IMG/VR virus record: IMGVR_UViG_3300049215_000149
Coordinates: 1 to 44,178 of that record
DNA from: a virus
Length of the DNA stretch: 44,178 nt
Strand: one strand, 5' to 3'
Shown here: piece after piece, positions 5,816-42,166 of the stretch
How positions within the stretch are numbered: position 1 is the stretch's first letter
Layout: each line of letters opens with the position of its first letter
The notes under the pieces: generated by a model
Database searches by the model: none
Seen by the model: the letters and a program-made list of their open reading frames with translations, nothing else
Told to the model about the DNA's origin: nothing
Translations under genes and position numbers: made by a program

Positions 5816-6827
<1,012 letters not shown>

Positions 6828-6831
<4 letters not shown>

Positions 6832-8759: not shown

Positions 8760-8920
8760 AGCGGCCACCATCCATTGGGCGCGCGCGTTGCGGCGAGCGC
8801 GATTGCGATCAGGCTGATCGCCAGCCCATTCACCAGCAGGATATTGAGTATCCAGCGCGACACTCTCGCCGCACGCAACTGACGGCGGGCAGCGGCGCAG
8901 GCGCTCACGGTCGGGTGCAT
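8756..8920 (-). CDS. 54-aa single-pass membrane protein
   Basis: The start is ATG 8920 inside the end of the upstream gene, and the stop overlaps the epimerase start (GTGA). The N-terminus is basic (ARRQLRAARVSRW). One hydrophobic helix follows (about residues 23-44, ILNILLVNGLAISLIAIALAA) with a short C-terminal tail. By the positive-inside rule the N-terminus faces the cytoplasm. Its role is unknown. Small early membrane proteins of phages often act in superinfection exclusion or host takeover, but that is only a suggestion. Confidence 0.6.
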   Translation of the reverse strand: MHPTVSACAAARRQLRAARVSRWILNILLVNGLAISLIAIALAATRAPNGWWPL

Positions 8921-23105: not shown

Positions 23106-25877
23106 GTGCCGCTGCGCAACGCCAAGCCCCTGACCCTTCGCCTGCACGGCGCTACGGACGCGATCGACGGGACAAACGCGCCCAAGGGCTCGATGTTCCG
23201 GCTGTCGAATGTGGTGCCATCGACGCGCACGATGGACACCTGGGAGCCGCGGCCGGCGGCCGTGTATGCGGGCGATCTTCACTTCCGGCCCGACCTCTTC
23301 CCGGCCCCGATCGGGCAGATATCGGTTCACCTGGTCGTCGGCAACCTCTGCTTCGGCATGTGCGCGACGGGCCTTACTGCTGGGTACGACCAGCCGTTTG
23401 TCTGCGACCTGACGACGGGCGGGTTCATCCCGGTCTTTGGTGTGACGGCGGCGAATGTGCCGGCGACGCAATCCCCGACCGGCAACTGGAACCCGCCGAA
23501 GATGGCGCAGGTCGGGCAGCGTATCGTGGTGACGCATCCGGGCTTTCCAGGTGCTCTGGTGAAATTCGGCTGGTTCGACATTTCGTCGTTCTCGGCCTCG
23601 ATTGACGGCTACCTGACCAGCGGCTCGACACAGGTGGTCGGCGTCTTCGATGTAACCGGCCTTCAGCCCGGCATGACGGTGGCGGGAACGGGCATTCCAG
23701 GCGGCACGACGCTGGTCGATATCCAGTCACCGTTCATCACCGTGCAGGGTGATCCGAACAACGCCGGCGACACGGTGCTGAACCTCAACTATACCCAGCC
23801 GTCTGCGCCCGTGGCCCCCGCGCCATTCATTTTTCCCTTCGGCGGCCAGGCGGTGAACGGTCCCGGCATCGTTGCCGGTTCAGTGGTTGTCGGCAACCCG
23901 ACGATCGTCTCGCAGACGCAGAACGCGGCGCTGGTGCAGGTGACGATCTCGATCCCGGCCACCGGGACATCCGGCTTCGTCCCGACCTATTCGTTCTCGG
24001 GCGAGTATTCGCTGATCATCTCGCAGCCGGCGACGGTTGACGGCACCGAATCGCTCCTGATCAAGGGCGGCACCCGGGTGCAGCCGTTGTGGGGGTCCGG
24101 CGATACCGCGATCAATCACCTGCCCTCGCAGCCGGTCGGGGTCGCGCAATACAACGGCGAGTGCTGGTTTGCCTGCGGGATCGACGGGGCTCCGTTCTCC
24201 GATCCGCTCCTCGCCTGTGTGCGCACCAACGCGAGCCAGGCGATCACCACCGATGACGGGCTCGCGACGACGGCGATCGAGGGTCTGCCGCTGACCTCGG
24301 CATTGACCGGAGGCATCATTCAGGCGCTGGTGCTGTTCGAGGGCGCCAGCAAGACGCAGGAAATCACCGGCGATTTCTTCGCCGGAACGCTGACGCTGAA
24401 CGAGCTGAACATTCCGACCGGGACGGTGGCGCCGCGCACCGTGGCGCCGAGCATGCTGGGCCTCGCCTTTGTCTCGCCGGAGGGTCTGCGCATCATCGAC
24501 TTCGGTTCGAGGGTGAGCGAACCGATCGGCGCTGCCGGCACCGGGATTACCCTGCCGTTCATGTTTTCGCAAATACCGACCAGGATGGCTTTGAACGCGA
24601 ACGCGGATATCATCCGGGTCGCGGTCGAGAACGATCTTCCGGGCGGTCAGTTTTCGGCCAGCCGAGGGCGTACAACTCAGGAATGGTGGTTTCACGTCAG
24701 TCGAAAAGTGTGGTCTGGCCCGCACTCTCTTACTTCCCAAGGTATTCAGCCGTGGACCTCGCCATTGACGGGGGTCAACACGTTCATCATCACGACCTTC
24801 AATCAACCTGGAATGCTGTTGCGCAGCGACAGCTACGTCTCGGGCGATACGACTTACGAAGAGGGGGCGGTATTCGATCCGAACACCGGATTTTTGACCG
24901 CAGGAAACCTCGTGAGATGTGGATTGTGCTCGACGCTCCTGCCCGATACTGGCGCTATGGCGATGAACGCGATCGTCGAGACCGCGCTGGCCCTCAAGAT
25001 GCCGTCCGATCACGACCTGACGATCCGGGCATACAACGAGGCGGGCGAGTTGCTGGACGAGGTTACGATCGCCGGCCTCTATGCGATGCCGATTACCGGA
25101 CAGGCAATCTCCGGGGCTTTCCTCGGCTACGCCGTCGAAGGTTTCCTGAACCAGTATAAAATCCCGTGGCATGTTCCGCTGGTATTCAAGCAGTGTTTTC
25201 TTGATCTTGAATGCCGGGCGCGGTTTGGGGTGACATTCGGAAACTGGTACTTGCGGTATCAGGTGTTGGGCGATTTCGACACCGACTTCCCGTACCAGCC
25301 CATGACCGCCCAGATTGAAGCTCTTCTGGATGACGTTACCGGGCAACCTGTTGCGCAAGCGTTAATTATTCCCGGCGCCGCACCGATGGGGACCAAGATC
25401 GGCACAGTTGTCGTGCGGGTCGGTAGCACGGTGATTGTCAATCCGTTGCTCACCCTTTCGTTTAACGAACTGGAGTCCGACGTTCAGACGGGAAACCAGA
25501 ATGATGAAGGCGTCTTTGCGATCGAACAGTTTTCCTCGTCGGGGATCACCGGAGACACGAACGGAACGACGGCGCTGGCAAATTTATCGGCCGATGTGAT
25601 CGCGGCCGGCTGGGATATCGGGATGAGCATCGTCGACTCGGCGTTCGAGTTGGGGACCGGGGAGACCCTGGCGGCAATTGCCGGCGGTGGGCTGTCAGCG
25701 ACACTCGGATCGGCCGCCGCGGGAACGGTTATCGGGGACGAATTCACCGTGACGGGCCAGAACCTCGTTACGAATTGGACAGGAACGCTTGCGGTCGGTC
25801 TGTATTCCGGTCAGATAAAGATCGAGAAGCCGGGCTTTCGGACGAGCTATTTCGACTTCTTCGTGACGGTGACGTGA
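23106..25877 (+). CDS. P22 gp10-like tail needle-hub / beta-propeller protein
   Basis: A 923-residue protein starting at GTG 23106. The N-terminus (RLHGATDAIDGTNAPKGSMFRLSNVVPSTRTMDTWEPRP) and propeller-type blades (VAQYNGECWFACGIDGAPFSDPLL, GLAFVSPEGLRIIDFGSRVSEPIG, WWFHVSRKVWSGPHSL) resemble the DNA-stabilisation/tail hub protein of P22-like phages (gp10, about 470 residues). It is about twice that length. Residues about 165-297 form an inserted beta region with VTGLQPGMTVAGTGIPGGTTL. The last 200 residues add a Gly/Thr/Ala-rich beta region. It closes the portal channel and probably holds the receptor-binding parts. Confidence 0.72.
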   Translation: MPLRNAKPLTLRLHGATDAIDGTNAPKGSMFRLSNVVPSTRTMDTWEPRPAAVYAGDLHFRPDLFPAPIGQISVHLVVGNLCFGMCATGLTAGYDQPFVCDLTTGGFIPVFGVTAANVPATQSPTGNWNPPKMAQVGQRIVVTHPGFPGALVKFGWFDISSFSASIDGYLTSGSTQVVGVFDVTGLQPGMTVAGTGIPGGTTLVDIQSPFITVQGDPNNAGDTVLNLNYTQPSAPVAPAPFIFPFGGQAVNGPGIVAGSVVVGNPTIVSQTQNAALVQVTISIPATGTSGFVPTYSFSGEYSLIISQPATVDGTESLLIKGGTRVQPLWGSGDTAINHLPSQPVGVAQYNGECWFACGIDGAPFSDPLLACVRTNASQAITTDDGLATTAIEGLPLTSALTGGIIQALVLFEGASKTQEITGDFFAGTLTLNELNIPTGTVAPRTVAPSMLGLAFVSPEGLRIIDFGSRVSEPIGAAGTGITLPFMFSQIPTRMALNANADIIRVAVENDLPGGQFSASRGRTTQEWWFHVSRKVWSGPHSLTSQGIQPWTSPLTGVNTFIITTFNQPGMLLRSDSYVSGDTTYEEGAVFDPNTGFLTAGNLVRCGLCSTLLPDTGAMAMNAIVETALALKMPSDHDLTIRAYNEAGELLDEVTIAGLYAMPITGQAISGAFLGYAVEGFLNQYKIPWHVPLVFKQCFLDLECRARFGVTFGNWYLRYQVLGDFDTDFPYQPMTAQIEALLDDVTGQPVAQALIIPGAAPMGTKIGTVVVRVGSTVIVNPLLTLSFNELESDVQTGNQNDEGVFAIEQFSSSGITGDTNGTTALANLSADVIAAGWDIGMSIVDSAFELGTGETLAAIAGGGLSATLGSAAAGTVIGDEFTVTGQNLVTNWTGTLAVGLYSGQIKIEKPGFRTSYFDFFVTVT

Positions 25878-26530
25878 TGCGCCGCGTGCTGCTTCCGCTT
25901 CTCGCTCTGTGCGGCCTGTTGTGGGCGGGCTCGGCCTCGGCGCAGGTTGTATGCCTCTTGCCGTACAACCTGCAAAACGGCGTGGTCTACGACGCGACGC
26001 AGGTGATGGCCGACCTCCAGGCTCTGCAGGCGTGCTTCGGCGGAACCGCGCCGAGCGCGCAATGCTCATCGAGCGCGCCGGGTCTGGTGCCGGCGACCGG
26101 CGGTGGCACGGCGAACTATCTCCGGGCTGATTGCACCTTCCAGCCGATCGCGGTGACGGATTGCAGCAATCTCCCGGCGGGGGGCTGTCCCTTCGACATT
26201 GCGATGTTCATCCCCGGTATTCCCGCGGACGGAGCCATCGTTCGGGTGGCGATCACCCGGGCGGTCAGTTGTCCCTCGGGGTTTGGCGGCTCGATTGGAT
26301 ACGCCCGCGAAAGCTCATCGAGCTCGGCGGTGATCACGGTTAATCAGGTGACGGCGGGCGTCGGGACGGCGCGCGGGACGGTGACGTTCAACCTCTCGAA
26401 TACCGGAGCCTTTGCTTCCGGCGCCGGGATGACGCTTGCTGCCGGCGATCTGGTCGAGTTCGAGTTCCCCACCCCGGCCGATATCACCCTCGGCGACATC
26501 GCGATCACGCTGCAATGCTCGCGCACCTGA
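25877..26530 (+). CDS. Exported 217-aa protein with Sec signal peptide
   Basis: The start at 25877 overlaps the hub stop (TGATG). The signal peptide is textbook: basic RR, then LLPLLALCGLLWAG, then cleavage after SASA (about residue 22). The mature part has eight or more cysteines (VVCLL, QACF, SAQCSSS, DCTF, DCSN, GGCPF, SCPS, LQCS), suiting disulphides in the periplasm, and a beta-sandwich-like end (GTVTFNLSNTGAFASGAGMTLAAGDLVEFEF). Tail proteins are normally assembled in the cytoplasm without signals, so this protein is probably delivered to the periplasm or cell surface. Confidence 0.75.
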   Translation: MRRVLLPLLALCGLLWAGSASAQVVCLLPYNLQNGVVYDATQVMADLQALQACFGGTAPSAQCSSSAPGLVPATGGGTANYLRADCTFQPIAVTDCSNLPAGGCPFDIAMFIPGIPADGAIVRVAITRAVSCPSGFGGSIGYARESSSSSAVITVNQVTAGVGTARGTVTFNLSNTGAFASGAGMTLAAGDLVEFEFPTPADITLGDIAITLQCSRT

Positions 26531-27342
26531 GGCGCTTTGCGGTCTGGCTGGCGCTTCTGGCGCTGGCCTCGCATGCTCACGCCGCATGCCAGTTGGATGG
26601 ACAGGCGACGCTCGGCACGACCTACAACCACACATTCCCGACCCGGACGATCGGCATTTCGACGATCCACGCGAACGACCTGCTGATCATGCACGTCGGG
26701 ATCAACTCGGAAAATCGCGGTTCCCCGAACTATGTTCCATTTGTAACCGGCATCACCGGCGCGGGCGTCACCTGGAAGAAGCGGATCAGCGCCGGCAACT
26801 TCATACCGAGTTGCTGGTTCTTCGGGGATTGCTGGGTCGCAAGTGAGGTTTGGTACGCGGTGGCGCCGGCGGCGATCTCGCCGAGTGTCGTCACGGTGAA
26901 CGTCTCAACCCCGGACGTTGCCTATGCGAGCCTGAGCTTCTTCGCGATCCACAATTCGAGTGCTTTCGACGCCAATGGTTCGCTGCCGAGGCTGGCGACG
27001 AATTATACGACATCGACGGCGGCGATCCAGGTGCCGGGGGTGTCAACCAATTCGGCGAACACCTGGGGTTTGACCTTCTGCGATTTCTTCGGTCCCGGCG
27101 TTGGCAGCTTCGCATGCTCGGTCCAGGCCGGCCCTTGGGCGAACATCAACGGCATCAGCCAGCAGAACCTCTTCATCAGTTTCGGGCTGGCGACGGGCGA
27201 TGCCTTCCTGGCGCTCCCGGCCGCTGTGTCAGGCGTGACCTTCGCGCCCTATGCGACGGCGGAAAACCGCTGGATCGCGATCGGGGATGCTGTGGTATGC
27301 GGGTCCGCCGGCTCTTTCTCGAACGTGCAGATCAACGAATGA
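26515..27342 (+). CDS. Exported 275-aa protein with Sec signal peptide
   Basis: It starts at 26515 within the end of the previous gene. Signal peptide: HLRRFAVWLALLALASHAHA with cleavage near residue 23, followed by Cys-containing AACQLDGQATLG. The mature domain is Ser/Thr/Asn-rich beta (LLIMHVGINSENRGSPNY, VTWKKRISAG, FFAIHNSSAF), resembling carbohydrate-binding or adhesin-like sandwiches. Paired cysteines occur in CWFFGDC. No catalytic motif is seen. Confidence 0.72.
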   Translation: MLAHLRRFAVWLALLALASHAHAACQLDGQATLGTTYNHTFPTRTIGISTIHANDLLIMHVGINSENRGSPNYVPFVTGITGAGVTWKKRISAGNFIPSCWFFGDCWVASEVWYAVAPAAISPSVVTVNVSTPDVAYASLSFFAIHNSSAFDANGSLPRLATNYTTSTAAIQVPGVSTNSANTWGLTFCDFFGPGVGSFACSVQAGPWANINGISQQNLFISFGLATGDAFLALPAAVSGVTFAPYATAENRWIAIGDAVVCGSAGSFSNVQINE

Positions 27343-27536
27343 AGGCTTTCGCCCTTGCTGCCGTGATCCTTGCCGCCGCGCCGTCGCTCGCCGCCGATGC
27401 GCCGATGGTGACTTTGCGGATGACGCAGCAACAGTTATTGTTGATCGTTCAAGGGTTGCAGGGCTTGCCTTACCGACAGGCAGCCCCGCTGCTGAAGATC
27501 ATCGACGAGGCAATGGAGAAGACCGATGGCAGGTGA
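27339..27536 (+). CDS. Small exported protein, 65 aa
   Basis: The ATG at 27339 overlaps the preceding stop (ATGA). The signal peptide MKAFALAAVILAAAPSLAADA is clear, with cleavage after SLA near residue 18. The remaining 45 residues are a helix rich in Gln and Leu (MTQQQLLLIVQGLQGLPYRQAAPLLKIIDEAME). Probably a small periplasmic protein. Confidence 0.68.
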   Translation: MKAFALAAVILAAAPSLAADAPMVTLRMTQQQLLLIVQGLQGLPYRQAAPLLKIIDEAMEKTDGR

Positions 27537-27705
27537 CCGCAAGAGCATGCCGCAGCAGTCGCACGAGCACGACATGCAGAAGCAGGAGCCGGGGATGCCG
27601 GGGCCGATGAGCGGCAACGGCCGGGCGATGCCGACGCACGAGTCGCTGCCCGGCGGTCGCGAAGGCGGTTCCAAGAAGGGACCGAAAGCCTCGCCGCAGC
27701 TCTGA
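27526..27705 (+). CDS. 59-aa low-complexity protein
   Basis: The ATG at 27526 lies in the end of the previous gene and the frame runs to a stop at 27703. The content is polar, with Met, Pro, Gly, His and Lys (SMPQQSHEHDMQKQEPGMPGPM...GREGGSKKGPKASPQ), and probably disordered. It lacks a signal peptide, unlike its neighbours. Role unknown. Confidence 0.5.
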   Translation: MAGDRKSMPQQSHEHDMQKQEPGMPGPMSGNGRAMPTHESLPGGREGGSKKGPKASPQL

Positions 27706-27714
27706 GCCAGGCCG

Positions 27715-28065
27715 ATGCGTGACGTCCCCCCACTGATGCGGCTCGGGATCTGGGCCTTCGCGGCGCTGGCTTCGGCGGGGCTCGCCTTCGCGGTCTGGGC
27801 AGCGGCGACAAACCCGTTGCCGCCATCGGGCGATTACGCAAAGTTCGCGGCGTATCAGCAGGGTCGCGCGATCTCGACCGGCACCTATTTCCCGGTGACG
27901 AAGGCGATCTTCAATGGCAACGCGACCGCCTGCAACATGACGTTGCTGCTCAACCTCGATACTGCCGGGGTAGCCTTCGATAATGTGCCAGCGGGCGCGG
28001 TCATCACCTTTATGGCCCGCCTGGTCAGCGCGACGACGTGCAGCAATTTGGTCGCGCTCTACTAA
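27715..28065 (+). CDS. 116-aa protein with N-terminal signal/anchor
   Basis: It starts at ATG 27715, or at 27736, which would give a cleaner signal segment RLGIWAFAALASAGLAFAVWAAA. The mature part (GTYFPVTKAIFNGNATACNMTLLLNLDTAGVAF, ITFMARLVSATTCSNLVALY) is a small beta domain with two cysteines. It is probably exported or anchored in the inner membrane. The end overlaps the O-antigen polymerase-like gene by 28 bases. Confidence 0.65.
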   Translation: MRDVPPLMRLGIWAFAALASAGLAFAVWAAATNPLPPSGDYAKFAAYQQGRAISTGTYFPVTKAIFNGNATACNMTLLLNLDTAGVAFDNVPAGAVITFMARLVSATTCSNLVALY

Positions 28066-29147
28066 GCCGATTCGCTGTTCTCGGCTTCTGCATCTCCGTC
28101 ATCTATTGGCCGGGCCTGCTCGGCGCCGCCTTGGTTCCCCGCTGGGCCGCAATCGCGGTCGGGGTGCCGCTCGCCTCGCGGCTTGACCCGCGTGAGGTCG
28201 AAGCGCGATATCTCTGGCTCCTGGGCGCGCCGCTTGTCAGCATTGTTATCCTCCGATGTCCGAGCCTCGACCGGGGCGCTCAGGACCTTCTCTTTCTGTG
28301 CTTCCTGGGGCTCGCGTTCATCGCCGCGGCAGGGCTTAAATCGCTCGACGGCGTGATGACCGGGCTTGCGCTCGGCGCGGGGGTCTCGGGTGTCCTGTGC
28401 GTCGCGCAGCTTTTCGGCTGGTCGCCGGTCGGGCAGATCAGCGTGCCCGCGGGCCTGTTCTGGAACTCGGAGGCGCTCGCCGAGTTTGCCGCACCCGTCG
28501 CGGTGTGGGCGATCTTGGCTCGTTCTCCGCTCGTTCTGCCGGCCGTTCTGCCTGTGCTCCTTTGCCACTCCCGCACGGCGCTGCTGGCGAGCGCCCTGGG
28601 GCTGCTGTACGCATGGGAAGCGTCATGGCGGGCAAAGATGCTAGCGGCATTCTTCGTTGCCGTAGCGGCTTCCGCGGCGCTTTTCTGGAGGCTTCCGAGT
28701 GCTAGCGAGAGGATCGAAATATGGCAAGCGGCGATCTCGGGGATGACGTGGCTCGGAAACGGCCTCGGATCGTTTGCCGCGGCTTATCCGAGGTACGACA
28801 CGGCGCACAGCGACGGCCTCCAGATGTTGTTCGAGCTTGGGCCGGCTGGCGTATTGTGGTTTTTGATCCCGATCCTGCTCTTGACGGAAAGGCGTAGGAG
28901 CCGTGGTGAGCGCGCGACTCTTGTCGCGATCATCGTTCAGGCGTGCATCTCGTTCCCGCTCCATCAGCCTGCCGCCGGCTTTGTGGCTGCGGTTGTGGTG
29001 GGCTTTCTGGCTGGCCGTCGGCGCGGCTTATGCGGTCAGCAATCTTGCGGCCGAGATTACCATGTCGCGGGTGATGGCGCGGTGGCCGCAATCCCCTTCC
29101 GAGATCCTGGCCGGGCTCGACCGCGCGGCATCTTTCTATCCGCTTGA
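28038..29147 (+). CDS. O-antigen polymerase/ligase-like (Wzy/WaaL type) multi-pass membrane protein
   Basis: A 369-residue protein from GTG 28038, with about ten hydrophobic helices. The central part has CHSRTALLASALGLLYAW, then RIEIWQAAISGMTWLGNGLGSFAAAYPRYDTAHSDGLQMLFELGPAGVLW. That order (SRTA, R-x-x-x-W, G-x-GLGSF, AH-x-D-x-LQ-x-x-x-E-x-G) is the Wzy_C/O-antigen ligase signature of enzymes that polymerise or attach surface polysaccharide in the inner membrane. Cellular members are usually about 400 residues. The last 40 residues after AGRRRG look like out-of-frame translation and overlap the next gene. A phage product of this type could change the host O-antigen and block superinfection. 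Confidence 0.75.
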   Translation: MQQFGRALLSRFAVLGFCISVIYWPGLLGAALVPRWAAIAVGVPLASRLDPREVEARYLWLLGAPLVSIVILRCPSLDRGAQDLLFLCFLGLAFIAAAGLKSLDGVMTGLALGAGVSGVLCVAQLFGWSPVGQISVPAGLFWNSEALAEFAAPVAVWAILARSPLVLPAVLPVLLCHSRTALLASALGLLYAWEASWRAKMLAAFFVAVAASAALFWRLPSASERIEIWQAAISGMTWLGNGLGSFAAAYPRYDTAHSDGLQMLFELGPAGVLWFLIPILLLTERRRSRGERATLVAIIVQACISFPLHQPAAGFVAAVVVGFLAGRRRGLCGQQSCGRDYHVAGDGAVAAIPFRDPGRARPRGIFLSA

Positions 29148-29202
29148 CCCGCATCTTAATGCGCTGCAAAGGCTGATACGTGAACGAGTGAGGGCGAAAT
29201 GA
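28903..29202 (+). CDS. 99-aa membrane protein overlapping the end of the Wzy-like gene
   Basis: The start is GTG 28903 or 28906, with AGGAG (28896-28900) just upstream, inside the Wzy-like gene in another frame. The first 25 residues are Arg/Ser-rich. Then come a membrane helix (LWWAFWLAVGAAYAVSNLAA) and a helical tail (SEILAGLDRAASFYPLDPHLNALQRLIRERVRAK) that looks like genuine protein and resembles the membrane-proximal tails of polysaccharide proteins. From about 29030 this frame is more protein-like than the Wzy frame. Either a real overlapping gene or the true end of the Wzy-like protein after a frame change. Confidence 0.6.
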   Translation: MVSARLLSRSSFRRASRSRSISLPPALWLRLWWAFWLAVGAAYAVSNLAAEITMSRVMARWPQSPSEILAGLDRAASFYPLDPHLNALQRLIRERVRAK

Positions 29203-29507
29203 AATTTGTGTTGCTGACCGCGCTTGCGGCGCTGATGGGCGTTGGGTTTTTCGCAATGCAGGTTTTGGCCCAGCGGCCGACGCAGCCCGATGTGCTCGGA
29301 CAGAGCGTTGTGGGTATCCAGGGCGTCCCGGTGGTAGCGACTCATCCGATGGGGACGCAGGCGCTGTCCTACAGCTCGCCGCTCGGGGCTTATGTGCCGG
29401 GCGCACCGATCAACGCCGCTACGTGGCCGACAAGCTGCTCATCTCCGATCGTGCAGCCGACAGGTACGGTCTACAGCGATAGTGGCACGCTGAAGGTTTG
29501 CCCGTAA
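29199..29507 (+). CDS. 102-aa exported or anchored protein
   Basis: The ATG at 29199 overlaps the preceding stop (ATGA). N-terminal signal/anchor KFVLLTALAALMGVGFFAMQVLAQR. The rest is short strands with Pro, Ser and Thr (VVGIQGVPVVATHPMGTQAL, GAYVPGAPINAATWPTSCSSPIV) ending in CP. It lies directly before the collagen-like fibre gene, and might serve as its base or its anchor. Confidence 0.65.
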   Translation: MKFVLLTALAALMGVGFFAMQVLAQRPTQPDVLGQSVVGIQGVPVVATHPMGTQALSYSSPLGAYVPGAPINAATWPTSCSSPIVQPTGTVYSDSGTLKVCP

Positions 29508-29513
29508 CCTCCG

Positions 29514-30503
29514 ATGGCCCGCTCTCGGCCTCCCGGCTCGGATACGCTCGGCCCGCTCGATGTTGGGTTGCAGGGCCGCGCGCTCGGCCCGCAGGCGCCG
29601 GCTGACAATGATGCGCTAGTCTGGGTTGAGTCGCTCGATGCATGGATGCCGCGCCCGCAGAGCGGTGGTCCTGGTGCAACGGGCGCGGTCGGCGCGACAG
29701 GCGCGACAGGACCGGACGGCGCGACCGGGGCGTCAGTTACGGGGGCGACGGGCGCGACCGGGGCGGCTGGAACCGATGGCGGAACCGGCGCGACCGGCGA
29801 TGATGGCGCGACGGGTGCGACAGGGGCCTCGGTAACAGGTGCGACCGGTGCGACCGGGGCAGGCGGGACTGGTGGCGCGACCGGGGCTACGGGGGCGACG
29901 GGGCCGCTAGGCGCTCGAGGGCCGACCGGGGCCACCGGGGCTCAGGGAGCGACCGGGGCGGGGGCATCGGGGCCGGCCGGGCCTTCGGGGGCCACAGGTC
30001 CATCCGGCGCGACGGGGCCGCAGGGGCCGACCGGGCCATCGCCCGGCGCTACCGGGGCCACGGGGGCTGCAGGCGCCGACGGCGGGACGGGGCCGACCGG
30101 ACCATCGGGGCCAATCGGGGCAACCGGGGCAGATGGGGCAACCGGGGCAACGGGGATAGGTGCTTCGGGTGCAACCGGGGCATCTGGTGCGACAGGCGCG
30201 ACCGGGGCCGCGGCCTTCACCAAGGCAACAGGCCTCACAGCGATCGGCACAAACCAGGGAACTGCGCTCGTCCTGACGGCGAATTTCAACGTGATCTCGA
30301 CGGCTGGCTCGGGAACCGGGGTGGTGCTGCCGAGCCTCGATCTGATCGCGGTGACGAACCAGGGCGCGAACGCCATCATCGCCTACCCGGCCTCGGGCGG
30401 GACGATCAACGAAGGGGCCGCGAACGCCGGCATCACGATCTATCCGAACACGACGGGCATGTTCATCCTCGCCGCGGCATTGACTTGGGAGAGCGTGCCA
30501 TGA
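29514..30503 (+). CDS. Collagen-like tail fibre/adhesin
   Basis: A 329-residue protein with no signal peptide. The N-terminal 50 residues ([35 protein letters not shown]) resemble fibre-attachment segments. Residues about 51-233 are Gly-X-Y repeats dominated by GAT, with interruptions (VT twice, AS twice, P once). The C-terminal 95 residues are a globular beta domain ([46 protein letters not shown]), a typical trimerising tip found after phage collagen repeats. Collagen triplets form a trimeric rod, so this is probably a fibre or spike shaft that reaches the host surface. Confidence 0.82.
29664..30212 (+). repeat. Gly-X-Y (mostly GAT) coding repeat
   Basis: About 61 triplets, largely Gly-Ala-Thr, encoded by near-identical 9-base units (variants of ggcgcgacc). 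The DNA repetition makes the region prone to length variation by slippage or recombination, which would alter rod length. Confidence 0.85.
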
Positions 30504-31429
30504 GGCGCGGGCTTATCGTCGGCGCGGTGTGCTTTCTGGTCGGCGCAATCGGGCTCGCGTTCGCCCAGACGACCGGGCTGCGGCCGGAGCAATTCATCGC
30601 GCTGCCGTGGACCTGGAGCGGCATCCAGTCATTCAACGACGGCAAGTTCGTCCTCAACGGCTCATCTAGCGGTTCATCGACGGTAAAGGCTCCGGCGACG
30701 GGCGGCGGGACCGCGACCCTGCCGACCGGCAGCGGGACGCTGGTCTATTCGGCCGGAGGCGGGGCAAATCTTGTCGTCGGCACGACCGCGATCACGAGCG
30801 GCACGAGCGGGCGTATTCTCTACGACAACGCCGGGGTGCTGGGCGAAGCTACCGTTACGGGCTCGCTCGGCAACGTGGTGCTATCGACCTCGCCGAGCAT
30901 TTCGGGCCTTACGGTCACGAGCAGCTTTACGGCAACCGGGCTTGTCACGAATGCCGATCTCGTCAGCCCATCGATCACGATCGCGGGCAGCACATGTACG
31001 CTTGGGTCAAGCTGCCTGGGGTCTGACGGGAATTTCGCCTTCCTCGACGTGGCGCAGAGCTTCACCAAGCCGCAGCGGGTCAAGGGCGGCAATGTCGCGA
31101 TCTCGACCGCGACCTTTACTTTCGATCTGAGCGCTCAGCAGGACTTCGAGATCACGCTGGTTCATGCGTCCTGCCCCTGCACGATCGCAAACCCGACGAA
31201 CATCTCGGCAGCCGCCAGCGACCACCAGCACGGTGTCATCATCGTCAACCAGTCGGCGACAGGCTCCGACACAATTGGGACGTGGGGCAGCCAGTGGGTC
31301 GCGGCCGGCGGGGTCTCGGCCCTGCCCGCGCTATCGACCGGGGCAAACGCGCAGGACATCTTCGCCTATGACGTGATAGACTCCACACACATCCTCATCG
31401 CTCCGGTGGCGGCCAATGTTTCGCACTAA
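30500..31429 (+). CDS. Exported 309-aa fibre-like protein
   Basis: The start at 30500 overlaps the fibre stop (ATGA). Signal peptide [21 protein letters not shown], cleavage after AFA near residue 23. The mature region has [22 protein letters not shown] and [23 protein letters not shown], a beta-repeat pattern frequent in phage tail fibres, and then Ser/Thr/Gly-rich strands with four cysteines. A tail-fibre-type sequence carrying a secretion signal is unusual. It may act outside the cell or be a moron adhesin. Confidence 0.7.
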
Positions 31430-31430
31430 G

Positions 31431-32561
31431 ATGTTTCGCTCGGCTTTTCTTGCGGTTCTTGCGACGCTTCCGGCCCTGCCGGTACCGGCGTCTGCGGCGA
31501 TCCTGTGGTTCGGTGGCGAGGATACGAGTTTTACATGTGTCGGAACTTGCGCTAGTACCAATGGCGGCAATCAATTCGATGCGTCTTTTGCACGCACATC
31601 AATGTCCGTGCAAAATGGCACATCCACTTCTGATCCACCAACGAATCTTTTGGTACCTGCCCCAGCCACTTTTACGGCGTGTAATAATCCGTGCTGGATA
31701 CATTTGAAGGTTTCGGCATATAATGTTATAACTACAACAAATAATGAACAATTTTTGATTTTATATGGCACTGACGGCGTGGGGAGATTATATCTCCGCC
31801 AGACCGGCGCAAATGGAACATTGAAACTTTCAATTGCCAATGCTGCACGAACGTTCACTGATCTTGCTACGTCAACAGCAACGTACACAAATGCGTATCC
31901 AGCAGGTACTATTACACAAATTGATCTCGGCATCAGTTCTACGTGTTCCAGTGGTGATACGGCAGTATTATATATCAATAATGTTCAAGGTATAAGTTAC
32001 ACTGGCAATTTATGTACTGATGCAAATACGCAATGGAATAAAATTGCAATTGGATCAATTAGTAATACAACACTAACTTGTGTTAGTGACGGAAGTTGTA
32101 TCTCTGAAGTAATTGTTGCTAGTGAAGATACCCGCTCGATGCGATTGGCGACGTTGATTTTGCAAGCGGCAGGTAACACTCAGGGATGGACGCCAAATAC
32201 GCTCGCGAATGTCAATAAAGCAACGATCAGTGATGGAACGTTTGTTTCGGACTCGACAGGCAATGTGTTGTCGCAGTGGAAAGTGCAGACGGCAGCGCCG
32301 ACCGGAACATGGGGCGTAAAGGCGGTTTCAATTGAGTCACGGCTGCTCGCCAGTATAACCGGGCCGCAGAATTTCGACTGGTCCTGGCGCATAAGTGGCT
32401 CGGATTATCTTGCAGGGACGACAACGGCGTTGACCAATAACTTTGCCAACTATCGGCTCCAGCGAGACACATCGCCGGCGACCGGTACAACGTGGGGAAT
32501 TTCCGAAGTATTCAACACGTCTACGAATCAGATGAATATCGGCGTTAAGAGCTTGCCATGA
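31431..32561 (+). CDS. Exported 376-aa beta-rich protein, AT-rich gene
   Basis: The start is chosen at 31431, one base after the previous stop; ATG 31416, five codons upstream, is possible. Signal peptide FRSAFLAVLATLPALPVPASA. The mature part has ILWFGGEDTSFTCVGTCAS and concanavalin-like strands (NEQFLILYGTDGVGRLYLRQTG, DTAVLYINNVQGISYTGN), suggesting a lectin or LamG-type sandwich. Six or more cysteines could form disulphides. Bases 31590-32250 are strikingly AT-rich with T/A-ending codons, unlike the rest of the genome. The gene therefore looks recently acquired. Confidence 0.7.
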   Translation: MFRSAFLAVLATLPALPVPASAAILWFGGEDTSFTCVGTCASTNGGNQFDASFARTSMSVQNGTSTSDPPTNLLVPAPATFTACNNPCWIHLKVSAYNVITTTNNEQFLILYGTDGVGRLYLRQTGANGTLKLSIANAARTFTDLATSTATYTNAYPAGTITQIDLGISSTCSSGDTAVLYINNVQGISYTGNLCTDANTQWNKIAIGSISNTTLTCVSDGSCISEVIVASEDTRSMRLATLILQAAGNTQGWTPNTLANVNKATISDGTFVSDSTGNVLSQWKVQTAAPTGTWGVKAVSIESRLLASITGPQNFDWSWRISGSDYLAGTTTALTNNFANYRLQRDTSPATGTTWGISEVFNTSTNQMNIGVKSLP

Positions 32562-32905
32562 AGAAAGTTTTATGTGCAGTGTTGTTACTAATGTTTATGT
32601 CTGTTTCAGTATGGGCACTTACGGAGGAAGAAGCCAGCAAAATTGTTGGATTTGCCGTGCTGAATGGTATTGCCGAAGAAACCAGCAAGATCGTTGGCTT
32701 CGCTGTATTGAACAGCATTGCGGAAGAAGACAGCAAGATCGTCGGCTTCGTTGTTCTCAAGGGTTCGCAAGAAGCCAATTCGAAACTAGTAGGGTTCGCC
32801 GTGCTATGCACGCCGACGACCGGCGTTCTGACGGGGGCATGTCCGATCCCGCCGCCAACAGGCAGCCCAGGCGCAGGCGGTTTGAGCATATCGGTCCCGT
32901 GGTGA
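32558..32905 (+). CDS. Exported repeat protein with four SKIVGFAVL units
   Basis: A 115-residue protein whose ATG overlaps the previous stop (ATGA). Signal peptide KKVLCAVLLLMFMSVSVWA, cleavage near residue 20. Residues 27-83 hold four units on an exact 16-residue period, each centred on SKIVGFAVL (SKIVGFVVL and SKLVGFAVL in units 3 and 4), separated by acidic linkers such as NGIAEET. A Pro/Gly-rich tail with two cysteines follows. Regular beta strands with acidic turns suggest a small solenoid or self-assembling fibre. Similar short VAYAVL-type repeats are remembered from alphaproteobacterial phages, but I cannot name a family. Confidence 0.72.
   Translation: MKKVLCAVLLLMFMSVSVWALTEEEASKIVGFAVLNGIAEETSKIVGFAVLNSIAEEDSKIVGFVVLKGSQEANSKLVGFAVLCTPTTGVLTGACPIPPPTGSPGAGGLSISVPW
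32636..32806 (+). repeat. Four 48-bp coding repeats
   Basis: Units start at 32636, 32684, 32732 and 32780. Their DNA differs at many synonymous positions (aaa/aag, att/atc, gga/ggc/ggg, ctg/ttg/ctc/cta) while the protein units stay nearly identical. The duplication is therefore old and the protein pattern is maintained by selection. Confidence 0.85.
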
Positions 32906-32916
32906 TGGAGAAGATC

Positions 32917-33336
32917 ATGCGTTTCTGGATGGCGCTCGCGTCGATGTTGCTGGCCGCGCCGGCGATGGCGCAGACGGTGCCGTGTACGACGGCTGGGCTA
33001 CCGGCCGGCCAGTGTCAGGTGAATGTCGTGGTGACGATCACGCCACCGGCTGGCTGCACGATCGTCAACGGTGGCCCTGGGGCGAGCAACGTCGCCTTCA
33101 CGGCGGCGGCTCCGCTTCTCGCGGGCCAGAAGCTCGGGACGTTCGCCCCGGCGCTCAGCGGCACATGCAGCGGCCCGGCAACCGCCACGGTGTCCGACAA
33201 TCGCTTCGTCGTGAACGGCCTCGACCTCGACGTGGGGCCGGTGCCGCCGCCGGTGAATGCTACCGGCAACACCATCTTCACCTTCACGGCGACGTTCGCG
33301 CCGCCCGCAGCGGCGGCATCGGCAGGGGGCAAATGA
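32917..33336 (+). CDS. Exported 139-aa protein
   Basis: The start is chosen at ATG 32917, five bases after GGAG; ATG 32905 is also in frame. Signal peptide RFWMALASMLLAAPAMA, cleaved before QTVPC. The mature part has cysteines in PCTTAG, GQCQV, GCTIV and TCSGP, and a beta-sandwich look (NVVVTITPPAG, ATATVSDNRFVVNGLDLDVG, NTIFTFTATFAPP). Probably a secreted or periplasmic beta domain. Confidence 0.7.
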   Translation: MRFWMALASMLLAAPAMAQTVPCTTAGLPAGQCQVNVVVTITPPAGCTIVNGGPGASNVAFTAAAPLLAGQKLGTFAPALSGTCSGPATATVSDNRFVVNGLDLDVGPVPPPVNATGNTIFTFTATFAPPAAAASAGGK

Positions 33337-33719
33337 TCCGCTGGCTGGCCCTCGCGCTGGCGCTGGCGATGCCTCCGCTCGCCGCGCAGACGGTCGATCA
33401 GCCGGCTGCTGTGATCGCCGTGGGGCCGGCGGCGGTGTGGATCGACACCGGGAACGGTGACAGCGCGGCCAAGTCGATCGCGGTCCCGCCGGGTGGCTCG
33501 GCGACGGCGCCGATCGTGTTCGGGCCGGGTGTGCAGCCGCCGAGCGATGCCGCGGTGGCGGCCGACGAGCCAGGATGGACCGCGCGCCTCAGTGCCGATG
33601 GCCGGTCAATCACGGTGACGCCGCCCGCAACCTTCTCCGCGGGCAGCACGGTGCTCCGCTACAGCGCACCGAGCGCACAGCTTGCGGACCAGGCGATCGC
33701 CTTCATCGGCCAACCATGA
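33333..33719 (+). CDS. Exported 128-aa beta-sandwich protein
   Basis: The ATG at 33333 overlaps the previous stop (ATGA). Signal peptide RWLALALALAMPPLAA, cleaved before QTVDQ. The mature part (AAVWIDTGNGDSAAKSIAVPPGGSATAPIVFG, WTARLSADGRSITVTPPATFSAGSTVLRYSAP) resembles an Ig-like or Big-type domain. It is the last of the exported series. It shares the QTV start of the mature chain with its upstream neighbour. Confidence 0.7.
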   Translation: MIRWLALALALAMPPLAAQTVDQPAAVIAVGPAAVWIDTGNGDSAAKSIAVPPGGSATAPIVFGPGVQPPSDAAVAADEPGWTARLSADGRSITVTPPATFSAGSTVLRYSAPSAQLADQAIAFIGQP

Positions 33720-34670: not shown

Positions 34671-34843
34671 ACATGAGCCTGCATCCCAAGGTCGCAGCCG
34701 GCACCCTGGCGGCGGCCCTGACCGGCATCCTGATCTCCGAACTGTCGCGCCGCGGGATCAGCATCGGGGCCGGCGAGGCCGCGAACATCACGACGATCAT
34801 CGCCTTCGTCGCCGGCTACTTCACTCCGCAAGGTGCAGCATGA
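34667..34843 (+). CDS. Holin-like protein, 58 aa
   Basis: The ATG at 34667 overlaps the previous stop; ATG 34673 is an alternative. Two hydrophobic helices (VAAGTLAAALTGILISEL; AANITTIIAFVAGYFTP) flank a short loop with RRG. This HPKVAAGTLA...TTxxAFVAGYFTP pattern is common among small phage holins. Holins form pores in the inner membrane and time lysis. Confidence 0.65.
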   Translation: MNMSLHPKVAAGTLAAALTGILISELSRRGISIGAGEAANITTIIAFVAGYFTPQGAA

Positions 34844-35328
34844 GCGAGCTACCCGAGGGCCGGATCGAAACCTTCCATGCCGAGGATATAAAGCGGCGCT
34901 ATCGCGTCGTCGATCGCAGCAGCCTTGCGACTGTGCCGGGCGAGGTCGTCAGCGCGAACCCGACCACCGGCGAATGCACGATGCGAGAAAAGGATGGCAC
35001 GGTGAAAACGCACAACCTGGGGCCTGGCGGTCTCGCGATCGTGACGCGGGTTCTGCTGCCGCTCGCGCTCATCCTCGGCATGACGGCGTGCGCTCAGACG
35101 CAGATGGACACCCAGAACGCCGCGGCGCTCGCCCAGAAGGCTGGAGACGCGCAGGGGGCTCAGTGCTGGGCCGCGCTCGGCGTGCCGCTCGGGCAGGCCC
35201 CACAGGGCGCGGGAGTGGCCTACGCGATCGAAGCCAAGCGCCTGATCGCCGGCATCATCAAGGAAGGCCCCTGCGCCCAGCTTGCAGCCGAAATCCTGGT
35301 GCAGGTCGGGAGCAAGTTCGTCCCGTGA
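34840..35328 (+). CDS. 162-aa protein with an internal lipobox (possible spanin-like lipoprotein)
   Basis: The start at 34840 overlaps the holin stop (ATGA). Residues 1-66 are a soluble domain (IETFHAEDIKRRYRVVDRSS...DGTVKTHNLG). In the middle is a complete lipoprotein signal, TRVLLPLALILGMTAC, which could begin at the in-frame GTG 35040 to yield a separate lipoprotein of about 96 residues. The mature part (QTQMDTQNAAALAQKAGDAQGAQCW) is helical. The gene may therefore make two products, or one fused protein. Placement after the holin suggests an outer-membrane spanin-like function, but evidence is limited. Confidence 0.55.
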   Translation: MSELPEGRIETFHAEDIKRRYRVVDRSSLATVPGEVVSANPTTGECTMREKDGTVKTHNLGPGGLAIVTRVLLPLALILGMTACAQTQMDTQNAAALAQKAGDAQGAQCWAALGVPLGQAPQGAGVAYAIEAKRLIAGIIKEGPCAQLAAEILVQVGSKFVP

Positions 35329-36470
35329 GGTTTCACGTCCTCGGCATCCCACATACGGTGTCGACCAGCGACTACAGCCTCTGCGCATTCACGACGAAGG
35401 TGGTGAAGCTTTGCCGGATGCTGCGGGCGCACGATCATGACGTGTTCCACTACGGCCACGAGGACTCGGTGGTTGATTGCACCGAGCATGTCACCGTCAC
35501 CACGCGCGCCGACATCGCGCGTACCTACGGTGATGCGTTCGACTGGCGTAAGGACGGGCTGCCGCCGTTCCGGTCGAACGATCACGTCAACCTGACCTTC
35601 CTGCGGCGCTCGATCGGAGAGATTGCGCGGCGCTGCGTGCCCGGGGATTTCCTGCTCTGCATGTGGGGCGGCGGGCATCGCATGGTCGCGGACGCTTTCC
35701 CGGACTTGAAGGTGGTCGAACCCGGCATCGGCTACCCGCGAGGCCATTTTGCGCCCTTCAAGGTGTTTGAGAGTTACGCGCTTTTGCACGCCTATCTCGG
35801 GCTCGATCACGTCGCCAGCGCCTTCAACAATCGCTGGTACGAGGTCGTAATCCCGAACTATTTCGACCCGGGCGAATTCGAGTTCCGACATGACAAGGGG
35901 GACTACCTGCTGTTCCTCGGCCGCATCGGTTCCGGCAAGGGAACGCACATCGCGATCCAGATCGCCGAGGCGACCGGCGCCAAGTTGATCGTCGCGGGGC
36001 CGGGTGAGATCGACCAGTCGATGGCGCGCACCGAGCGGCCGATCGCCGAATATGTCGAGCACGTCGGAATCGTCGATGTGGGGCGCCGGCGGGAACTTCT
36101 ATCGCGGGCCAGGGCGGTGATCGCGCCAACAACTTTCCTCGAACCCTTCAACGGGGTGCATGTCGAGGCGATGATGTCGGGAACGCCGGTCATCACTACG
36201 GATTTCGGAGCGTTCGCCGAATACAACCTGCATGGGATCACTGGATACCGCTGCCGAACCTTCGAGCAGTTCACCTGGGCGGCGCGCAACATCGGGACGA
36301 TCCAGCCCGGCGCCTGCCGATATTGGGCGACGAAGAATTTTTCGATGGAGCGGGTCGCCAAGATGTATGAGGAATTCTGGTGGCAGGCCGACAAGGCGCA
36401 GTGGTATGAGCCGAGACCGGATCGAAAGGAACTCGATTGGCTGACCAGGGAATATCCGGCGGTCTGGTAG
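35325..36470 (+). CDS. Glycosyltransferase family 4-type (GT-B) enzyme
   Basis: A 381-residue protein from GTG 35325, which overlaps the previous stop (GTGA). The C-terminal Rossmann half has YLLFLGRIGSGKGTHIAIQIAEATGAKLIVAGPGE and the donor-binding block APTTFLEPFNGVHVEAMMSGTPVITTDFGAFAEYN, with the E-x7-E-like motif of GT4 enzymes. The N-terminal half (FHVLGIPHTVSTSDYSLCAFTTKVVKLCRML, PGIGYPRGHF) holds the acceptor side. It transfers a sugar from a nucleotide donor, on host surface glycan, phage protein or DNA. Together with the early epimerase and the Wzy-like protein it points to glycan modification. Confidence 0.85.
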   Translation: MRFHVLGIPHTVSTSDYSLCAFTTKVVKLCRMLRAHDHDVFHYGHEDSVVDCTEHVTVTTRADIARTYGDAFDWRKDGLPPFRSNDHVNLTFLRRSIGEIARRCVPGDFLLCMWGGGHRMVADAFPDLKVVEPGIGYPRGHFAPFKVFESYALLHAYLGLDHVASAFNNRWYEVVIPNYFDPGEFEFRHDKGDYLLFLGRIGSGKGTHIAIQIAEATGAKLIVAGPGEIDQSMARTERPIAEYVEHVGIVDVGRRRELLSRARAVIAPTTFLEPFNGVHVEAMMSGTPVITTDFGAFAEYNLHGITGYRCRTFEQFTWAARNIGTIQPGACRYWATKNFSMERVAKMYEEFWWQADKAQWYEPRPDRKELDWLTREYPAVW

Positions 36471-36898
36471 CCGCCCCGGAATTCTGGCATCGGTTCCGGC
36501 AGGATCCCGGTCTGCCGTCTCTTATCCTGGCCTACAACGAAGAACTCGGCGTTGTCACGGACCCGGATTGGTCGCTGATGACGCGCCGCGCCGCGGTGGG
36601 CGACCTCCACACGTTCACGCTTCGGAATTTGCGGAATGCGTTGTGCGGCTTTTGCCTCTGCGAGATGCGGGCGCTGACGGCATTCAAGGGCAGGCGGCTC
36701 GCCTTTGCCGACAACATCTACGTCGAGCCGCGCCACCGGCCGGCCGGCAGGGATATTTTGATAGATGAGGTATGTCGGTATATGCGCGACAAAGGTGCAA
36801 GTCAGTTCGCGATGCACCACCACGCGGAACCGGCATGCGTTCCGCCCCTCGGCGCGGTGATGACGATGCGGGTGCTGGTCAAGGAGTTGCGGCCATGA
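36437..36898 (+). CDS. GNAT-fold protein (T7 gp13-like internal virion protein or acetyltransferase)
   Basis: A 153-residue protein starting at TTG 36437, supported by AAAGGA six bases upstream. The block ALCGFCLCEMRALTAFKGRRLAFADNIYVEPRHRPAGRDILIDEVCRYMRDKGASQFAMHHHAE fits the GNAT acetyl-CoA fold (beta4-alpha3). The canonical R/Q-x-x-G-x-G/A loop reads RPAGRD. T7 gp13 (DUF2833), a protein needed for internal core assembly, has the same fold and a similar position before the ejection proteins. Either this structural role or an acetyltransferase is possible. Confidence 0.65.
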   Translation: MADQGISGGLVAAPEFWHRFRQDPGLPSLILAYNEELGVVTDPDWSLMTRRAAVGDLHTFTLRNLRNALCGFCLCEMRALTAFKGRRLAFADNIYVEPRHRPAGRDILIDEVCRYMRDKGASQFAMHHHAEPACVPPLGAVMTMRVLVKELRP

Positions 36899-39320: not shown

Positions 39321-42166
39321 TGCCATTGCCGCAGGGTTACACGCTCGATCAACCGCAACAGCCCGCAACAGCACAGCCGCACCTTCCGCCGGGCTACACG
39401 CTTGATCCGATCCCGCCGCCCGACCCGCATCAGGGTATGACGCACCAGCCGGTGCAGTTGCCCGGCGGTCGGATGCAGGGCGTCGACTACACGACAGGGA
39501 CGGGGTTTTTTGATCGGATGGCGCTCAATCAGGCGTCCAATCCTGCCGAACAGAAGCTCTACCTCGAAAAAAAGTATGGCGCCGATAAGGTTCACCAGGA
39601 CCCTGGTGGCCGTTTCTACATCATGACCCCTGACACCAAAATGGTAGCGCCCAGCGGCGGCTCGCCCTTTCAACAATTCAGCGCCGCGATGGCTGATCCG
39701 ACAATGGTCGGTGGCACCCTTGGCGGAGTGGCGGGGTCGGCGATACCGGGTGTCGGCACGGCGGGAGGCGCTGTTGCCGGGGCAATGGCAGGTGGCGCGT
39801 TGGGTCGCACTGTCTCAGAGGCGTGGAAATCTCTCGTCGGCACTTCCGCGTCAACGGCTGGCGAAAAGGCTCATGAGATTGGCTCCGCCGGCTTGGCGAT
39901 GGGAGGCGGCGAAGGTGCCGGCCGGCTGATCAGCGGCATCCCGAGCGCGGCCGGCTCTGTATTCCGCAGCAAAGTGGCGGGCGTCACACCAGAAAGCCGG
40001 CAAATGGCGGCGACGATCGAGCGCATGGGCGGGGTGGCTCCGATACAGACCGCAGCGCCCGGTCTGGCCTCGCCGTCGCAGAAGCAGTTCATTTCCGCAA
40101 AACTCGGCGAGGACTGGCTGGCTCAGCGCAACACGCCAGTTGTCCAGAAGCGGCTACAAGACATCATCCGGTCGTCCTCCTTGTCGCCCGTCGAGCGGGA
40201 AAACCTGATCCGACAGATGCTCGACCCGGCAGCCGCGGTTTCAACAACAGAAACCGGCGAGCCCCTTGTTCAGGCAGTGCGGTCAAAAGTCGCCGGTATG
40301 GAGGCAAACGTCTCTCGCCTGACGGCCGACGCCGACCGGATTCTCAATAGCCAGCTTTCATCGATTACCAGGCGCATGGCGAAGCCTGGCTCGCTTGGTC
40401 AAGATGTTGCGGCAGACCTAGCTACCTCCCGCCAGCAATTCAGCGAAGCAGCCCAAAAACTTTATGGCCCGATTGACAACATCGTCGGCGATCAAGCTGT
40501 TGTTCCGACCGCCGGGATCAAGAAACAAGCCACCGAATTGCTGCAATCCCCGCTTTTCGGGGACCCCCGGCTCGTCCCGGTCATGACCAATCTCTCGAAG
40601 CTGCCCGATCACATAAAATTCAGCGATGCGCAAGAAATCCGCACGCTGCTGAACAATTGGGAGCTTTCACCGGACCTTGCCGGCAGCCTGCCGAAACGGC
40701 AATTCAGTCTCCTACGGGACGCCTCGGATGCAGCGTTTACGGCGGCGGCGGATAATCCTGCGATAGCTCCAGCGATCGACATGCTACGCAAAGCCGATGC
40801 GTTCTATGCCGAGGGGATCAAGAAATTCAAAAATGTGACGATCAACCAAATCGTACATGACGTGCGGGACGGCATCGTCCCGAACCCGGTGGTGGTGGCA
40901 AACAAGGTGCTCCGAGAGGGGCAGCTGGAACAGGCGCAGACCATTAAGGGTATGGTCCAGCCGAGCGTCTGGGAACGCATCGCCGGCGCTGATTGGGAGT
41001 CTATCGTCGGTCATGGAGGAAGCGCCCGCGATCCGCAATCCGGCGACATCATCCCGCGCCGTCTGGCAGCCGAGGTCGCCGACCGTAAGGCAAGCGGGTT
41101 GCTCGATCTCACCTACGGGTCCAGGGCGAGGGATATCGAACTTTACGCCGATCGGGTGTCGGCGCGTGGCGGGAAACTCCCGCCCGAGGCGCTGGGCCTT
41201 GATCGCCTCGGCCGCACGGTGCGGGAGCTGGATGTCTCGCAGAAGCGCCTCGACGATTACCTGAAGACAAACTACCTGGCGGCGCTCGCAAAGCCCGGCC
41301 CCGTTTCGGACGATGCCGTGCGGTTTGTCGTCAAGCCAGGACAGACCGAGCGTCTTGAAATGGCGAGGGCGGAATTCGGTGATTCCTCTCCGCAGATGAA
41401 GGCGATCCGGACCCAGGCACTGAAGGAACTTCTGCACAGCGCTGTCGCGCGGTCTCCGACAGGGGTCGGACAAGCCATTTCGGGGACAGGCATCGAGCGA
41501 GCGCTTTCGCAATACACAACCCGACAACAGGAAATCTTATTCCCTGGGGGCTTAGCCGAGGACATGAGGCAGCTCGCCAGGGAAATTCGCGGGATGTTCC
41601 CTGGCATGGCCCGCGGCGATATGCTGACAGGCGCGCAAATCGCCGGAGCAATCAAAAATGCTCCTCTGTTGGGGAGCATGAGAGCGGCGCGGGCCGGGGC
41701 TATTACGGGCGCGGTGCTGGGCGGTCTGCCGGGGTTTGCGGCGGGGCCGGGCGGGGCAATGATAGGCGCCGGCGCCGGGGCTACAGTCGGCGCAATCGCC
41801 GGCGGATTAGCTGGCGGCCGTCTTGTAAAAACCCAATATTATCAAGCGTTGGCGTGGATTTACTCTCAGCCGCGAGTTGTTCGGATGTTGACGCAGGGGC
41901 TACAGCCGGGACCTGGGAAGGCAGTCACCCGCGAAGTGATCCGCGGCATCTTCCGCCTCGCCGGCTATGGCATGCTTCCCGACGTGCAGGAACAGGACCC
42001 GGCACTCGGCTCGTATCAGCGCGCTGCATCCGCTCGCACTTGGTCATCGCCATTCTCAAATCCGCTGCTGCCGCCACTCCCGCCGATGCGCGATCGCCTT
42101 GGTATCGGGGACCGCGGCCCGCAGGGCGGCACCGTTACGGGCGTGACGCCGGTCCCGCCGACGTGA
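39320..42166 (+). CDS. Large internal virion/ejection protein, 948 aa
   Basis: The start at 39320 overlaps the preceding stop (TGATG). The N-terminus has two copies of LPxGYTLD (residues 3-10 and 22-29). Two glycine/alanine-rich hydrophobic stretches (about 134-160, GGTLGGVAGSAIPGVGTAGGAVAGAMAGGALG; and about 797-835, GAVLGGLPGFAAGPGGAMIGAG...) could insert into a membrane. The middle is long helices. It fits the largest ejection protein of podoviruses, which crosses the cell envelope during DNA entry. I see no transglycosylase catalytic motif, though this is the most likely place for a hidden cell-wall enzyme. Confidence 0.7.
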   Translation: MPLPQGYTLDQPQQPATAQPHLPPGYTLDPIPPPDPHQGMTHQPVQLPGGRMQGVDYTTGTGFFDRMALNQASNPAEQKLYLEKKYGADKVHQDPGGRFYIMTPDTKMVAPSGGSPFQQFSAAMADPTMVGGTLGGVAGSAIPGVGTAGGAVAGAMAGGALGRTVSEAWKSLVGTSASTAGEKAHEIGSAGLAMGGGEGAGRLISGIPSAAGSVFRSKVAGVTPESRQMAATIERMGGVAPIQTAAPGLASPSQKQFISAKLGEDWLAQRNTPVVQKRLQDIIRSSSLSPVERENLIRQMLDPAAAVSTTETGEPLVQAVRSKVAGMEANVSRLTADADRILNSQLSSITRRMAKPGSLGQDVAADLATSRQQFSEAAQKLYGPIDNIVGDQAVVPTAGIKKQATELLQSPLFGDPRLVPVMTNLSKLPDHIKFSDAQEIRTLLNNWELSPDLAGSLPKRQFSLLRDASDAAFTAAADNPAIAPAIDMLRKADAFYAEGIKKFKNVTINQIVHDVRDGIVPNPVVVANKVLREGQLEQAQTIKGMVQPSVWERIAGADWESIVGHGGSARDPQSGDIIPRRLAAEVADRKASGLLDLTYGSRARDIELYADRVSARGGKLPPEALGLDRLGRTVRELDVSQKRLDDYLKTNYLAALAKPGPVSDDAVRFVVKPGQTERLEMARAEFGDSSPQMKAIRTQALKELLHSAVARSPTGVGQAISGTGIERALSQYTTRQQEILFPGGLAEDMRQLAREIRGMFPGMARGDMLTGAQIAGAIKNAPLLGSMRAARAGAITGAVLGGLPGFAAGPGGAMIGAGAGATVGAIAGGLAGGRLVKTQYYQALAWIYSQPRVVRMLTQGLQPGPGKAVTREVIRGIFRLAGYGMLPDVQEQDPALGSYQRAASARTWSSPFSNPLLPPLPPMRDRLGIGDRGPQGGTVTGVTPVPPT

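Follow-up and report, generated by a model that had tools for sequence, protein, structure and literature searches.

What does a tailed phage do with a short, signal-peptide-bearing protein built largely from 16-residue repeats? The window analyzed here, a 44,178-bp tailed-phage record whose genes include those for the terminase, the portal and the major head protein, encodes such a protein at positions 32558–32905. A first-pass annotation had offered two functions for it: self-assembly into functional-amyloid- or curli-like fibres, or a role as a repeat-based adhesin. We propose that the array gene and the gene upstream of it, here termed FGGED after a motif in the N-terminal part of its product, form a two-gene tail-adhesin cassette in which the array is a tether that organizes or attaches a lectin-fold protein at the tail; we assign this reading a probability of about 0.6.

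Sequence and repeat structure of the array protein

The array gene (32558–32905, + strand) encodes 115 residues, as annotated, with four SK[IL]VGF[AV]VL units whose serines fall at residues 27, 43, 59 and 75. The signal peptide noted in the first-pass annotation was also recovered by a simple heuristic (score 4.31): the N-terminus (MKKVLCAVLLLMFMSVSVWA) is signal-peptide-like, and residues 1–20 (32558–32617, + strand) form a putative Sec signal peptide likely to be cleaved after VWA. Unit 1 (SKIVGFAVLNGIAEET, 32636–32683), unit 2 (SKIVGFAVLNSIAEED, 32684–32731) and unit 3 (SKIVGFVVLKGSQEAN, 32732–32779) are followed by a fourth of which the core alone, SKLVGFAVL (32780–32806, all + strand), is present. 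The earlier description as four exact 16-residue repeats thus holds for the register but not for unit 4, the flanks of which differ. Likewise, the acidic turns that had been pointed out are present in the window (AEE/AEEE) but are a local feature, the turns of most relatives being PPxG-like. A Pro/Gly-rich C-terminal tail (32807–32902, + strand) ends in GGLSISVPW; many short relatives also have a short hydrophobic stretch as their C-terminal end.

The 16-residue register is far above chance: after residue 20, the self-match at offset 16 comprises 35 residues, against a shuffle maximum of 22 (0/20,000 reach 35). Tandem Repeats Finder reports a period of 48 nt with 2.7 copies at 32627–32754. Compared unit against unit, the 9-residue core shows 3–7 synonymous and 0–2 non-synonymous codon differences; codons have diverged mainly synonymously while the cores were kept, which upholds the proposal that selection maintains the pattern. 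An antisense ORF (32545–32889) was not accepted as genuine, since the synonymous changes are distributed as the + strand reading would have them.

AlphaFold predicted only short strands for the array as a monomer (pLDDT 55, pTM 0.28), a low-confidence prediction in which the window protein by itself has no stable or ordered fold. Searches with the whole 115-aa protein, by tblastn in phages, in viral contigs and against Pfam, yielded nothing, and sequence comparison with the PDB gave only chance matches to a dehydrogenase; matches to PHROG 22446 (E 0.008) and to a GNAT Pfam family were likewise taken as chance. The Adeno_shaft profile of Pfam, which describes the adenovirus-type triple beta-spiral shaft, did not match the window array.

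A wider family of repeat arrays

Relatives were found through degenerate DNA patterns for two adjacent units, scanned over IMG/VR contigs, which identified genuine arrays in 32 viral contigs. These define a widespread family whose tandem unit reads [ST]K[LAVI]xx[YF]A(V)L, and the periodicity on which the first-pass annotation had staked its reading is present in them at 15–19 residues: 17 (28 cases), 16 (15), 15 (5), 18 (5) and 19 (1). Most arrays hold two to three strict units, with conservation (in per cent) of S84 K100 x x x Y85 A76 V100 L79, the K and V values being fixed or nearly fixed by the selection pattern used. The profile search with the unit that had been suggested as a check succeeded, since a profile built from units of other contigs, without the window, ranked the window ORF first of 799 (E 6e-17, four domains), the second-ranked window ORF following at E 0.21.

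The unit core is kept in phages of Vibrio, Brevundimonas, the Roseobacter group and Ramlibacter. The strict pattern, which fits 13 of the phage and viral loci then known, was also applied to 84,980 species genomes of bacteria and archaea, where it returned a single locus, in a prophage-like region of Ramlibacter aurantiacus. Several arrays stand alone in proteins of just ~48–80 aa, and some array proteins carry additional Ig-like (He_PIG), glycine-rich or discoidin-like regions. In five loci (L028, L038, L040, L092 and L100), SKxxxYAVL units are mixed with (V)TQ/SQxxxEVL-type units, which suggests that the strict motif probably captures only part of the family. Other repeats also occur beside the arrays: a second repeat (ALxGRI...) lies between the SK-YAVL array and the tail-tip domain in L039 (13214–14122) and L052 (1620–2843), and in L078 (7408–8925; also L020) a short SK-YAVL array precedes a long run of ~20-residue LSAxxxITSxGTK-type repeats.

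A search of the open literature with the motif letters found no paper, and a description may exist elsewhere. Neither the repeat family nor the strict pairing presented below is apparently described in Pfam, PHROG or the literature searched; the kind of system, a tail adhesion module, is already known.

Pairing with a lectin-fold protein

The FGGED gene (31416–32561, + strand) encodes 381 residues and overlaps the start of the array gene through ATGA (32558–32561). Its product comprises a signal peptide, a sandwich at residues ~25–245 and a C-terminal beta domain, and matches phrog_6368 (E 2e-22), a PHROG with function not known that is matched by 18/18 aligned FGGED members. An AlphaFold2 model based on 18 sequences reached pLDDT 85.4 and pTM 0.87, from which residues ~25–245 are confidently predicted to adopt a ConA/LamG-like lectin sandwich, or jelly-roll. 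The best VIA match was glucuronan lyase 2zzj (Z 15.8 over 194 residues), followed by Cip1 and the calreticulin and ERGIC-53 lectin domains; these ConA/LamG-like lectins and lyases share the fold at Z about 13–16 but only 7–17% sequence identity. Foldseek also returned the receptor-binding domains of clostridial neurotoxins, holders of the same common fold, and such a predicted fold by itself proves neither function nor carbohydrate binding. Viral structure matches included proteins of Roseovarius phage 1 and Vibrio phage VpV262 and an Achromobacter phage AchV4 protein annotated as 'virion structural protein'. By sequence, the whole window FGGED protein found nothing in the viral contigs, and a profile search of the PDB with alignment A1, which was too diverse to be used as a scan pattern, found no relative.

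Among the window neighbours sought in array loci, FGGED recurs almost everywhere and the other proteins rarely or never. A homologue is encoded in 31/32 array contigs versus 0/18 contigs without an array (Fisher 1e-12), the controls being pattern-match records lacking a genuine array (L009 and L043 were counted as genuine arrays); with near-duplicates removed, the figures are 26/27 and 0/15. The sole array contig without FGGED, L047, is an 11.8-kb fragment, and for seven loci with an absent or partial neighbourhood, the full records contained FGGED in 7/7 cases. A reverse scan with one FGGED protein, with arrays recognized by reading adjacent frames, placed an array beside or near FGGED in 17/17 full loci, about seven of these contigs being already known from the pattern scan. 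Three of the loci (L087, L089 and L092) have variant arrays that the strict unit profile missed, and in L086 the array lies ~1.6 kb from the FGGED gene. The distance between the FGGED stop and the opening of the array frame could be measured in 35 pairs and is no more than 40 nt in 30 of them. Pairing of array and FGGED is thus near-obligatory; EE36phi1 has an FGGED homologue, but no array is visible beside it. The number of units bears no obvious relation to the number of FGGED genes, at one gene and four units in the window, one and seven in L003, and two and six in L076.

A three-part order, in which a discoidin-like region and then the array adjoin the FGGED gene, is common to very different phages: L110 (4745–6354; orf33/orf34 of the Roseovarius podovirus RPP1) and L056 (4277–5957; Ramlibacter). 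In two loci, the frame of FGGED copies seems to be broken (L074, minus-strand frames 5929–6837 and 6780–7616; L024, 1211–2224), for which sequencing error and decay are indistinguishable.

Association with the tail tip

Several arrays are fused to recognizable tail-tip proteins. In L052, L035 and the Brevundimonas phage Strzyga, the array lies N-terminal of the Dit domain in a protein with DUF2460 (distal tail), and L052 matches the distal tail proteins of known structure from R4C and RcGTA (E 1.6e-7). Elsewhere the array is joined to the hub (L047, which matches the R4C hub at E 2.6e-66), to a gpL-like protein (L013; Phage_tail_L), to the Pam3 plug gp18 (L039), or to a third, frame-broken FGGED copy (L074). 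Roseophage RPP1 has an FGGED homologue in orf82 (E 1e-23); the gene immediately preceding it, orf81, has a three-to-four-fold Y.VTGM-type repeat at its C-terminal end that was recognized by eye rather than with the unit profile. Mass spectrometry of purified RPP1 virions found the products of both orf81 and orf82 (PMC4193335); this result, from a distant relative, is the sole experimental support.

The window arrangement, in which FGGED adjoins an SK..YAVL-type or variant array, recurs in Strzyga and the Brevundimonas phage Delta, in the Rhodobacter phages RcXuper and RcKickapoo, and in the roseophages DSS3P8, V13 and RPP1. Unlike the window, these loci have no noted signal peptide and are mainly annotated as hypothetical, and their arrays often lie within a larger protein or upstream of FGGED.

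A structural precedent is offered by phage JBD30, in which an N-terminal loop of Dit (residues 2–74) wraps the tail fibres of three gp47–gp48 heterodimers (PMC11445458). The arrays of L052, L035 and Strzyga may be likened to this loop by position. Inspection of the fibre-wrapping N-terminus of JBD30 gp49 revealed no visible repeat, and gp47 and gp48 did not match the FGGED profile; JBD30 serves as a precedent for geometry and position only, not as a homologue. In the branched receptor-binding systems of Klebsiella phages, which have conserved peptides and anchor domains, a receptor-binding protein is coupled to a different tail component through short peptide motifs. Those motifs are single N-terminal peptides, whereas the present family has tandem arrays.

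Genomic setting, export and origin

The array gene shares one run of genes with a collagen-like tail fibre gene (29514–30503, + strand; Pfam Collagen E 8e-16, PHROG tail fibre E 8e-30). The next gene (32905–33336, + strand; ATG at 32905, alternative start at 32917) is predicted to be exported, and its start may overlap the array stop in TGATG (32903–32907); the stretch 32917–33333 had no match in Pfam or PHROG. No tail-tube gene was found in the window, so the phage is likely short-tailed.

Signal peptides are unusual on phage tail genes and usually absent from phage virion proteins. Among the FGGED/array pairs compared, they occur only in the window, L003 and L053–L055, and there on both partners together, which argues that array and FGGED act in the same place. 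Export, as predicted from the N-termini, appears to mark a minority subset rather than being a general trait of the array family. Within the window, the region 25874–33719 contains at least seven signal-peptide-like starts (25874, 26515, 27297, 29199, 30485, 31416 and 32558); those at 32899/32917 and 33333 are probably of this kind too.

The two genes form a low-GC island (31416–32905, + strand; GC 0.47–0.52, GC3 0.44–0.55) among genes with GC3 of about 0.73–0.85. The window portal had no match in 12 other cassette-bearing records, a mismatch that suggests transfer of the cassette between unrelated phages; together with the low-GC island, it makes horizontal gain of the pair likely.

Proposed function of the cassette and alternatives

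In the tail-adhesin cassette that we propose, each 15–19-residue unit, made up of [ST]Kxxx[YF]A(V)L and a turn, would most likely be a beta-strand-forming segment in an otherwise flexible chain. The chain would extend outward from the tail and organize or attach copies of the lectin-like protein there, and the tethered protein could then contact host surface glycans. We infer direct binding between the array and the lectin-like protein, with each unit as a docking strand for one lectin subunit and a corresponding stoichiometry, and a glycan as the target. The window cassette would probably pass through the inner membrane and then either enter the particle or act at the cell surface, and this exported form matches a tail tether less well. 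A more elaborate version, which we consider possible but less likely than not, is a multivalent scaffold with one beta-strand per lectin copy, in which repeat number would set the adhesin copies per tail arm. Such a module would pass from one tailed phage to another, unrelated one and be spliced onto any tail-tip protein available, with one subset traveling via Sec.

Alternatively, the array protein could itself be the adhesin, its strands binding the host surface while the lectin-like neighbour acts as a separate receptor-binding protein of the same operon. The added Ig-like, glycine-rich or discoidin-like regions and the small stand-alone arrays favor such a role, but the unit core is kept across different hosts, whereas receptor-contacting parts usually vary, and adhesins acting independently would not be expected to keep so strictly to a single partner family; we consider this unlikely. 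An assembly chaperone for FGGED that is not stable in the particle would be consistent with the predicted disorder of the array alone and with its overlapping position downstream of a tail protein, as in tail-fibre assembly genes. It is made quite improbable by RPP1 gp81, which has a comparable array and which mass spectrometry detected in virions, and by the fusions of arrays with hub or distal-tail proteins, which are expected within the particle.

Among the functions originally suggested, the adhesin has gained support, because arrays almost always accompany a protein with a lectin fold and, in relatives, are joined to proteins of the tail tip. The extracellular fibre, in which exported units would stack as cross-beta in the manner of a functional amyloid, has gained none and seems very improbable. 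The short strand-turn units, constant register and signal peptide would all suit it, but no curli-type motif is present, the Curlin profile of Pfam did not match the window array, the units lack the conserved Gln/Asn of curlin repeats, and the monomer prediction has no ordered fold. Moreover, curli proteins (CsgA/CsgB, with conserved Ser, Gln and Asn) are encoded in a csg operon, whereas the window array is surrounded by phage tail genes, and most members of the family are non-exported and fused to or beside tail-tip proteins.

The tether reading puts forward a definite mechanism, open to testing, by which tails could hold lectin-type proteins. Genes near the phage tail tip are mostly annotated 'hypothetical', and the repeat and its partner provide a handle for adhesin modules across many unrelated phages. 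The family also accounts for several orphan small ORFs, often <80 aa and easily overlooked by gene callers, and its exported version raises the question of why tail-adhesin proteins should be sent through the Sec pathway.

Other genes of the window

Judged from their translations alone, several further products look like enzymes of surface sugars: an O-antigen-ligase-like membrane protein (28038–29147), a glycosyltransferase (34833–36470), a sugar epimerase (7914–8771) and an acetyltransferase (36437–36898), which could possibly form a surface-sugar modification set. The translation of 41854–43491 is similar to an ATP-grasp-type enzyme, an odd neighbor for phage structural genes.
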